This document shows, piece by piece, positions 2,197 to 63,484 of a stretch of 64,000 nt of DNA. The position numbers and the translations under genes are program-made. Within the stretch, counting starts at the first letter, position 1, and every line of letters begins with the position of its first letter. The notes beneath the pieces are model-generated. The model made no database searches. It was given only the letters and a program-made list of their open reading frames with translations, and had not been told where the DNA came from. The DNA is from Euzebyales bacterium (lineage in GTDB: Bacteria > Actinomycetota > Nitriliruptoria > Euzebyales > JAHELV01): NCBI GenBank assembly GCA_036374135.1, contig DASUUK010000113.1:62001-126000 (forward strand), given 5' to 3'.

Positions 2197-2817
2197 GTGC
2201 GACGACTGCTGCTGCTCACGGTCGTCGGTTTCGTCCTCGTGGGCTGCGGGGGATCCGCCACATCGGACACCGCGGCCGTCGATGTGGGTGACACCGACGA
2301 CGCCCCCTCCGCCCCGGCCGGTGATGAGGTGTCGACGCCGGCGGCGGCTCAGGAGGAATCCGATCGCGGCGAGGAGTCCGATTCCGGCCAGGGGTCCGAC
2401 ACGGCCGAGGCCCGAGCGCCGTTCGGGACCGTCACGACCGTCGCCGGTGAGAACCTCGACGGGTCGGTGTACGCGGGCGAGAGCCTTGCGCTGTGGTTCT
2501 GGGCCCCCTGGTGAACGACGTGCAATCGGGAGGCTCCCGAGGTTGCACAGGTGGTGCAGCAGTACGACGGCAAGATCGACATCATCGGCGTCGCCAGCCG
2601 TGACCAGGTGCCGGCCATGCAGGAGTTCGTGGCCCGCCACGGGCTCGAGGACATGGTCAACGTGGCCGACGTCGAGGGCGAGATCTGGCAGCGGTTCGGC
2701 GTGGTGGCCCAGCCCGCGTGGGTGTTCCTCGACGCGGAGACCGGCGAGGGGGAGCGGGTGCTCGGTGCGCTGTCCCGCGAGGACCTGGAGCAGCGGCTCG
2801 ACGCGCTGTCGAGCTGA
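2197..2817 (+). CDS. Thioredoxin-like lipoprotein with selenocysteine active site (UxxC), read through UGA at 2512-2514
   Basis: Read as one frame this is a 206-residue TlpA/ResA-type thioredoxin. The N-terminus is a signal peptide with lipobox L14-V-G-C17, so the protein should be anchored outside the membrane. An acidic Ser/Asp/Glu-rich linker (about 20-80) follows, then a thioredoxin fold. The active site is 'FWAPW-U106-T-T-C109', where relatives have 'FWAPWCPTC'. After the UGA the fold continues without a break: 'REAPEVAQV', 'IIGVAS', and the cis-proline loop 'VAQP173AWVF'. A conventional gene call would split it at 2514 into a truncated lipoprotein and an internal piece starting at the GTG at 2551. 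A hairpin right after the UGA fits a bacterial SECIS, and a tRNA-Sec gene lies at 28013-28107. A likely role is redox work on the outer face of the membrane; its partner is unknown. Confidence 0.88.
2512..2514 (+). other. UGA codon recoded as selenocysteine (U106)
   Basis: The codon occupies the position of the N-terminal, nucleophilic cysteine of the thioredoxin CxxC motif. Downstream codons ACG ACG TGC give U-T-T-C. The reading frame stays open and homologous for another 100 codons to a TGA at 2815-2817. Confidence 0.87.
2520..2548 (+). promoter_or_regulatory. Predicted bacterial SECIS hairpin inside the coding sequence
   Basis: The stem is GUGCAA (2520-2525) with UUGCAC (2543-2548), followed by UCGGGA (2526-2531) with UCCCGA (2535-2540). 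Two G residues bulge on the 3' side and the apical loop is GGC. The loop starts 17 nt after the UGA and has G in its first two positions. Both agree with what is known of bacterial SECIS elements bound by SelB (loop about 16-37 nt downstream, a G at loop position 1 or 2). The structure was folded by eye. Confidence 0.75.
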
Positions 2818-28012: not shown

Positions 28013-28107
28013 CGGAGGCGAACGGGAATCGAACCCGCCAACCGGTGTGTGACACCGGTTCATCGGTTTTGAAGACCGTGGGACCCACCAGGAATCCAGA
28101 CGCCTCC
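28013..28107 (-). tRNA. selC: tRNA-Sec (UCA anticodon)
   Basis: Read on the minus strand this folds into a selenocysteine tRNA. The acceptor is GGAGGCG (28107-28101) with CGCCTCC (28020-28014). A six-pair D stem GGATTC/GGGTCC follows, then anticodon loop CTTCAAA with anticodon TCA. A nine-pair long variable arm AACCGGTGT-CAC-ACACCGGTT and a five-pair T stem around TTCGATT complete it. The 95-nt length, long D stem and long variable arm are diagnostic. The discriminator is G and CCA is not encoded. It provides the decoder for the UGA in the thioredoxin-like gene at 2197-2817. Confidence 0.95.
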
Positions 28108-61072: not shown

Positions 61073-63484
61073 TTGGCGAAGAACCTGGTGATCGTCGAGT
61101 CGCCGGCGAAGGCGAAGACGATCGAGAAGTACCTCGGCGGCAACTACAAGGTGTTGGCGTCGGTCGGGCACATCCGTGACCTGCCGCGCAGCGACTTCGC
61201 CGTCGACACGTCCGCCGAAGACGTCTCCCTGCGCTACGAGGTCCCGAAGGGCTCGTCGAAGGTCGTGACGTCGATCCGAAGGGCTGCGAAGGCCGCCGAC
61301 CACGTGTTCCTCGCGACCGACCTCGATCGTGAGGGCGAGGCGATCGCCTGGCACGTGGCCGAGGTCGCCGACATCGACACCGCGACCGAGAACCGCGTGG
61401 TGTTCAGCGAGATCACGAGGGATGCCGTGCTCGCGGCCTTCGACCAGCCGCGCCGCATCGACCAGCACCTGGTCGATGCCCAGCAGGCACGCCGCGCGGT
61501 CGACCGCATCGTCGGGTACCGCGTGTCGCCCACGCTGTGGCGCAACGTCGCGAGCGGCATCTCAGCCGGCCGCGTCCAGTCGGTCGCGCTGCGCATGATC
61601 GTCGACCGCGAGGACGAGATCCGCCGCTTCGTCGCGCAGGAGTACTGGAGCCTGCACGGTGACTTCGACCGCGACGGCACCGCGTTCGCGTCGGAGCTCT
61701 ACAGCGTCGACGACCAACGGATCACCGACCCCAAGAAGTACGACGAGGCCATCGACAAGGACGCGTCCCCGGACCTCCGCGGCGGCAATCGGACCGCGAA
61801 GCTGCATGTCATCCGCGACGTCGACGAGGCCCGGCGTCTCGAGGGCCTGAGCCGCGCGGTCGACGGGTGGACGGTCACGGACGTCACGCGGCGCGAGACC
61901 AGGAAGAATCCCGCGCCGCCGTTCACCACGTCGACGCTGCAGCAGGAGGCGGAGCGCAAGCTGGGCTTCGCGCCCGGGCGGACCATGCGGATCGCCCAGC
62001 AGCTGTACGAGGGCATCGCACTCGGCGACGAGGGTCCGACCGGACTCATCTCATACATGCGTACCGACTCGACGAACCTGTCCAACACGGCGCTCGGCGA
62101 GCTGTCGGAGCTGGTGCGAACCGACTACGGCGAACGCTATTCGCTGGACAGGCCGAGGCGGTACTCGCGCAGCAGCAGGAACGCCCAAGAGGCGCACGAG
62201 GCGATCCGCCCGACGAGCGCCATGCGCCGCCCGACGCGGGTCGCGCGTCACCTCGACCGTGACCAGGCCGCACTGTACGAACTGATCTGGAAGCGCACCG
62301 TCGCCACCCAGATGGCGCCGGCGGTCTACGACTCGGTGCGCGCCGACATCGTGGGCACCGCCACCCCCACCGGCGGGAAAGCAACGGAGCTGACGTACCG
62401 GGTCACCGGACGCATCCTCAAGTTCGACGGCTTCATCGCCGTCTACGTCGAGGGCACCGACGACGGCACGGTCGACGAGGTCACTGCATCCCTGCCCGAC
62501 CTGGTCGACGGGCAGACGCTGGCCCTGGTCGACGTCCGCGGTGAGCAGCACTTCACATCCCCGCCGTCGCGCTACACGGGATCCAGCCTGGTCAAGGCGC
62601 TGGAGTCGGAGGGTATCGGTCGGCCGTCGACGTACGCCTCGATCATCCAGACGCTGCTCAACCGCGAGTACGTGCGGCTCGAGTCGCGCCGGTTCTTCCC
62701 GACCGCGCTCGGCGAGGTCGTGACCGCCTACCTCAAGCAGCACTTCGCCGAGGTCGTCGACACCAGCTTCACCGCGCGCATGGAGGACGAGCTGGACGAG
62801 ATCGCGGCCGGCAGCCAGGCGTGGGGCCCCATGGTGCGTGAATTCCTGGGCGAGGTCGACGAGTGGATCGCCGACCGCAAGCCGGAGCGCCCGCGCCTGC
62901 CGTTGGACGGCGCGACGTGCCCCACGTGCGACGCGCCGATGGAGAAGGTGTTCAGCGGCAAGTCGCGCCAGTGGTTCGCGTCGTGCAGCCGGTGGCCCGA
63001 GTGCGACGGCACGCTGCCGCTCGACGCCGAGGGCAACGTGACGACGATCGAGGAGCTGCAGCCCGACGAGAGCGTGCGCTGTCCCGAGTGCGGCAAGGCG
63101 ATGATCCGTCGCGAGGGGCGGTACGGGCCCTTCTACGGCTGCCAGGACTACCCGAAGTGCAAGGGCATCGTCAACGTCGAAATGCACATCGGCTTCGACT
63201 GCCCGAAGTGCGGGATGGGGCAGCTCACCGAACGGCGCAGCCGGCACGGCAAGCCGTTCTACGGCTGCAACCGGTACCCGGACTGCGACTTCGCGATGTG
63301 GACGACCCCGCTGGCCCAGCCGTGTCCGAACTGCGGTGGCCCACTGAAGCCGCCACGCAAGAACGCCAAGAACCCGGTCGGCACGTGCGCGCACTGCGGC
63401 GAGAAGACGCCGGTCGACGCCGATCCACCGCGCGTCGGAACGACCGAGGTCGTGCCCGGCCGGGACGAGTCCGCGGCGGCCTGA
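61073..63484 (+). CDS. topA: DNA topoisomerase I
   Basis: A 803-residue type IA topoisomerase that relaxes negative supercoils. The Toprim domain begins 'KNLVIVESPAKAKTIEKYLG' and contains 'FLATDLDREGEAIAWH'. The catalytic tyrosine is Y328 in 'LISYMRTDSTN'. The C-terminus has four zinc-ribbon units, beginning 'CPTCDAPMEKV', 'CPECGKAMIRR', 'CPKCGMGQLTE' and 'CPNCGGPLKPP'. A start at TTG 61073 ('LAKNLV') gives the family N-terminus and is preceded by GGAGAG at 61064-61069. The upstream frame to 60944 is unlike coding sequence. Confidence 0.94.
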   Translation: MAKNLVIVESPAKAKTIEKYLGGNYKVLASVGHIRDLPRSDFAVDTSAEDVSLRYEVPKGSSKVVTSIRRAAKAADHVFLATDLDREGEAIAWHVAEVADIDTATENRVVFSEITRDAVLAAFDQPRRIDQHLVDAQQARRAVDRIVGYRVSPTLWRNVASGISAGRVQSVALRMIVDREDEIRRFVAQEYWSLHGDFDRDGTAFASELYSVDDQRITDPKKYDEAIDKDASPDLRGGNRTAKLHVIRDVDEARRLEGLSRAVDGWTVTDVTRRETRKNPAPPFTTSTLQQEAERKLGFAPGRTMRIAQQLYEGIALGDEGPTGLISYMRTDSTNLSNTALGELSELVRTDYGERYSLDRPRRYSRSSRNAQEAHEAIRPTSAMRRPTRVARHLDRDQAALYELIWKRTVATQMAPAVYDSVRADIVGTATPTGGKATELTYRVTGRILKFDGFIAVYVEGTDDGTVDEVTASLPDLVDGQTLALVDVRGEQHFTSPPSRYTGSSLVKALESEGIGRPSTYASIIQTLLNREYVRLESRRFFPTALGEVVTAYLKQHFAEVVDTSFTARMEDELDEIAAGSQAWGPMVREFLGEVDEWIADRKPERPRLPLDGATCPTCDAPMEKVFSGKSRQWFASCSRWPECDGTLPLDAEGNVTTIEELQPDESVRCPECGKAMIRREGRYGPFYGCQDYPKCKGIVNVEMHIGFDCPKCGMGQLTERRSRHGKPFYGCNRYPDCDFAMWTTPLAQPCPNCGGPLKPPRKNAKNPVGTCAHCGEKTPVDADPPRVGTTEVVPGRDESAAA

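Follow-up and report, generated by a model that had tools for sequence, protein, structure and literature searches.

In the window, by which we mean the whole stretch of 64,000 nucleotides analysed here, the in-frame UGA of one forward-strand gene is very probably decoded as selenocysteine (Sec) in a DsbE/DsbF-like lipoprotein; judged from the sequence and its relatives, we put the probability of this reading at about 0.96. Translation of positions 2197–2817 gives a single frame of 206 amino acids, in which the only internal TGA is codon 106 (Table 1). The lipobox LVGC occupies residues 14–17, as seen by inspection (MRRLLLLTVVGFVLVGC), and most relatives whose N-terminus was inspected carry comparable lipoprotein signals. 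The start position is coded by GTG (a valine codon), which is kept in four congeneric genomes. The AhpC-TSA/Redoxin domain of Pfam runs uninterrupted over the UGA (residues 73–180, 3.5e-11). The sequence-only reading had described a lipoprotein signal, an acidic linker and a thioredoxin fold continuous in one frame, with the UGA exactly at the first active-site cysteine (U106-T-T-C109), and its coordinates, lipobox, linker and motif were correct. It had also expected standard annotation to yield two pieces, and standard ORF calling indeed splits the gene into 1051–2514 and 2551–2817. The gene stands alone, with a luciferase-like monooxygenase on one side and a phosphofructokinase on the other.

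Table 1. Features of the predicted selenolipoprotein gene and of the selenocysteine machinery on the same contig (window positions unless a contig is named).
Feature	Position	Strand	Basis or remark
Sec-containing DsbE/DsbF-like lipoprotein (predicted), complete CDS	2197..2817	+	GTG start, TGA stop 2815–2817; frame, Pfam, homologues
Lipoprotein signal peptide, lipobox L-V-G-C17	2197..2247	+	sequence; like signals in relatives; C17 is the predicted lipidated residue
Acidic disordered linker, residues 18–71	2248..2409	+	sequence; low structure-model confidence over the linker
Thioredoxin-fold domain, residues 72–206	2410..2814	+	Pfam; AlphaFold model pLDDT ~97; match to 3ios with TMt 0.91, 1.5 Å
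In-frame UGA, predicted selenocysteine 106 (WFWAPW-U-TTC)	2512..2514	+	154 hits, aligned codon TGA (59) or Cys (95)
Resolving cysteine C109, UxxC motif	2521..2523	+	invariant in 20-sequence alignment
First hairpin after the UGA, UCGGGA-GGC-UCCCGA	2526..2540	+	folding; extendable to 2520–2548, alternative to the SECIS hairpin
Predicted bacterial SECIS hairpin, GUUGCAC-AGGUG-GUGCAGC	2542..2560	+	covariation; common in Sec forms, nearly absent in Cys forms
Q172-P173, cis-proline loop position of thioredoxin folds (role of P173 presumed from the fold)	2710..2715	+	both invariant in 20-sequence alignment
Selenocysteine tRNA gene, anticodon TCA	28014..28107	-	Rfam RF01852, 69 bits; ARAGORN
selB	C113:25668-27506		window's own contig
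selA	C113:29695-30999		window's own contig

The TGA is tied to one codon of the family. Among 61 related Actinomycetota genomes (the window's own and 60 relatives), 20 have as best match a homologue in which just one in-frame TGA occurs, and in all 20 homologues, read on the correct strand, this TGA lies at W[FML]W[AT]PW-U-xx-C. A profile applied to 158 loci gave 154 hits, in which the codon aligned to residue 106 is TGC or TGT (95) or TGA (59, of which 55 distinct) and never another; none of the TGA forms has a further TGA inside the domain. Cys and TGA interchange at this active-site position, which is the pattern that marks a bacterial selenoprotein, and the search for homologues with Cys or Sec at residue 106, proposed in the sequence-only reading, was answered by many that span the UGA. 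As the TGAs of the homologues all fall on one codon in independent genomes, an assembly error is not the cause, and the agreement is far beyond chance. The alignment of the 20 sequences has 17 invariant positions, including C109, E112-A113-P114, Q172 and P173.

The Sec form of the family was found in 42 of the 397 Actinomycetota genomes sampled. The viral contigs searched held no relatives, and on plasmids the relatives are only more distant ones (<45% identity). In one genome, a Cys-type and a Sec-type member of the family lie in tandem (L123, G204:C154:60460-60975 and 61147-61719). A separate Sec TlpA-like group with the motif NFWESWU or NFFESWU is present in other Actinomycetota families (L139, L140, L141, L144, L147, L150, L145 and L148).

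The RNA downstream of the UGA can form a SECIS-type hairpin. The bSECIS model allows an apical loop of 3–9 nt with G in the first two positions, a spacing of 16–37 nt and a stem of at least 4 bp (PMC13188914), and the hairpin of the window gene, with the loop AGGUG (2549–2553) on a 7 bp stem 34 nt past the UGA, lies within these limits. Two layouts recur in the family: class I has a 5-nt loop, mostly A-G-[GU]-N-N, at 34 nt with a stem of 5–8 bp (31 sequences, including the window gene), and class II has a GGUC loop 26 nt from the UGA (15 sequences). A scan at those two positions, which were picked after inspection, finds the hairpin in 46/55 Sec forms and in no Cys form (0/94); a free scan over the whole 16–37 nt range was therefore added, and it finds one in 47/55 Sec forms, whereas it is nearly absent (4/94) from the Cys group that contains DsbF and DsbE (p=1e-25, relatedness ignored). 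In the class I stem, 92.6% of the cells are paired against 81.4% in shuffles, a percentage inflated by the choice of the 31 sequences for having the stem, and double-change cells, partly inflated likewise, number 23 against 5.4; the comparison of Sec with Cys forms is free of this bias. The covariation score of class I is 0.42 (0.20 in shuffles, at most 0.12 with the partner slid), and RNAalifold recovers the helix unaided. By eye, a similar hairpin with one mismatch can be seen at the same place in six Sec sequences from the NFWESWU group.

The minimum-energy fold of the window gene contains both the SECIS hairpin and the first hairpin after the UGA, although in the ensemble fold the longer form of the first hairpin is favoured (pair probability 0.74, versus 0.24 for the SECIS hairpin). 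A rare GCT alanine codon is found at the first-hairpin site, and against synonymous recoding the folding of the first 39 nt is borderline (z=-1.6, p=0.057). A 12 bp hairpin starting 8 nt past the UGA was also considered as the SECIS and was rejected, since covariation is seen in 1 of its 9 pairs and is strong at 34 nt. These data bear on the possibility that the UGA is a true stop, in a decayed or frame-broken gene or between two separate short pieces. The two pieces given by ORF calling would agree with such a stop, but 20 relatives and 55 distinct sequences share the TGA at this codon, with the flanking protein conserved, and the RNA structure past the UGA covaries, which makes a true stop very improbable; codon conservation and the RNA evidence together exclude a decayed gene.

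The genome is equipped for selenocysteine insertion. The sequence-only reading had made its case dependent on selA, selB and selD, and all three are present along with tRNA-Sec. The selD gene lies elsewhere in the genome and has its own TGA, in a GAGUACKL site, while two formate dehydrogenase alpha subunits have TGA in RTUHAPS and RIUHSST; SelD and the two dehydrogenases share one contig (G000:C74:8268-9188, 21275-22018 and 27005-28891), with UGA at canonical Sec sites, and the apical loops of their hairpins contain G. Across the 397 Actinomycetota genomes, selA is found in 38 of the 42 with a TGA form, a selA hit being lacking in the other 4, and in 193 of the 355 others (p=2e-6, relatedness ignored). 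In the 61 close genomes, selA or tRNA-Sec is present in 20/20 with the Sec form versus 28/41 without. One Sec-form genome, G018, has selA in two adjacent pieces (contig C20:345521-346817) and no convincing tRNA-Sec, which reflects either sequencing errors or a Sec trait being lost.

A suppressor or an altered code that puts a selenium-free residue (Cys, Trp or some other) at the UGA would equally leave the frame open, as would any reassignment of TGA. Nevertheless, the window gene and most of its relatives terminate at TGA as a real stop, the TGA stands in for Cys only and at one active-site codon, and tRNA-Sec, selA, selB and selD are in the genome, so that readthrough of this kind is hardly credible and decoding as selenocysteine is the preferred reading.

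The solved structures closest to the protein are those of Mycobacterium tuberculosis DsbF (3ios, 4.1e-31) and DsbE/MPT53 (1lu4, 2.3e-25), followed by ResA (4nmu, 1.9e-10), and the DsbF and DsbE structures also take ranks 1 and 2 in Foldseek, so that sequence and fold both place the protein closest to the DsbE/DsbF group. Both mycobacterial proteins share with it the thioredoxin domain and the motif (WFWAPWCxxC or WFWTPWCxxC), at 40–41% identity in structural alignment and TMt 0.90–0.91; they differ in having Cys in place of Sec, and a lipobox together with a long acidic linker further distinguishes the window protein. The CxxC with both cysteines, typical of the group, is not found here, as the predicted Sec replaces the first cysteine and the second is invariant. 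By sequence, the window protein is thus the predicted Sec counterpart of actinobacterial DsbE/DsbF and neither DsbE/DsbF proper nor ResA. The assignment to a TlpA/ResA-like family in the sequence-only reading holds in that one thioredoxin-type domain extends on both sides of the UGA, but by E-values DsbE/DsbF are closer than ResA.

No NCBIfam model scores above its cut-off (ResA 55.7 bits of the 170 required, DsbE 41.7 of 123, StoA 39.2 of 210). ResA, StoA and the CcmG/DsbE of other bacteria resemble the window protein in fold, in predicted membrane-side location and in the CxxC-type site, but have Cys at the active site, and the protein stays below their cut-offs. The Rcas_1661 family thioredoxin-like (seleno)lipoprotein (NF041057) is likewise a Sec-containing thioredoxin-like lipoprotein; its match is weak and N-terminal (18.9 bits, cut-off 190) and falls short of the active site.

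On a tree of 150 sequences, Sec/Cys changes number 4, against 45 in shuffles. The window gene and 31 further Sec forms group together, next to a Cys clade of 80 members, mycobacterial and pseudonocardial proteins among them. A nesting of mycobacterial DsbE/DsbF inside the Sec forms was considered and is unsupported, trees that hold the Sec forms together being no worse (AU p=0.62 and 0.70). Tentatively, the Sec forms may constitute a large, unnamed selenoprotein family of Actinomycetota-wide distribution, whose SECIS comes in two layouts (loop AGG/UU, 34 nt; loop GGUC, 26 nt); the Cys-containing DsbE/DsbF of mycobacteria would be the Cys relatives of this family, perhaps of Sec ancestry.

For the working of the protein we propose that SelB and Sec-tRNA would decode the UGA under the direction of the SECIS hairpin, and that the product would be exported and, with a lipid on Cys17, would stay anchored at the outer side of the cell membrane, its thioredoxin domain carried on a flexible acidic linker. 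The selenolate of Sec106 would attack an exported protein at a disulfide (or an oxidised thiol), Cys109 would resolve the mixed selenosulfide, and the resulting U106-C109 selenenylsulfide would be recycled by a membrane thiol carrier. Selenocysteine has a lower pKa than cysteine and resists irreversible oxidation; that it would make a faster, lower-potential redox centre, as the sequence-only reading had it, is general chemistry.

One membrane thiol carrier was found in the genome, CcdA, in a cluster elsewhere with a Cys-type ResA-like protein and a cytochrome c gene; no hit to VKOR was obtained in this one genome, which is 96% complete. Given CcdA and the missing VKOR hit in this single 96%-complete genome, reduction or isomerisation is favoured over oxidation and is the somewhat likelier direction. 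Action as an oxidase that inserts disulfides into exported proteins is possible but rather doubtful: the nearest solved relatives are DsbF and DsbE, and those of M. tuberculosis reportedly put disulfides into exported proteins, but VKOR, the usual actinobacterial re-oxidant, seems absent, and the reducing carrier CcdA is there, though beside another, Cys-type ResA-like protein. Papers on the function of DsbE/DsbF are cited in PMC12421883.

A role as the thiol reductase of cytochrome c maturation, like ResA or CcmG, would suit the fold and the distant similarity to both proteins, and a Sec paralogue in another genome (L121) adjoins ccmF and ccmH. For the window protein such a role is unlikely, as the cluster of Cys-type ResA-like protein, CcdA and cytochrome c lies apart in the same genome and the neighbours of the gene are the monooxygenase and the phosphofructokinase. 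L121 (G006:C4:370638-371150) is the second Sec paralogue in G006 and also lies beside a ferric-reductase-like membrane protein; from this neighbourhood, cytochrome c maturation may be the task of some Sec forms. For the window protein, reduction or isomerisation of exported proteins remains the favoured direction.

Sec UxxC proteins of TlpA/redoxin type were catalogued in 2026 (PMC13188914), so this kind of protein is already known. The UxxC 'thiol-disulfide isomerase-like' (cd02966) and 'Redoxin family' (PF08534) selenoproteins of that review, in which Actinomycetota go unmentioned, have Sec-x-x-Cys and a TlpA/redoxin-type fold as the window protein does; compared with the window family by description only, they may include the same family. 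Our literature search found no paper describing an actinobacterial Sec DsbE/DsbF-like family. Routine annotation still cuts selenoproteins in two, and the Sec DsbE/DsbF-like lipoprotein is without an NCBIfam model. The Cys side of the family includes M. tuberculosis proteins with solved structures, and the occurrence of Sec and Cys forms in one family, once side by side in a genome, would offer a direct test of the benefit of selenium in an exported thioredoxin.
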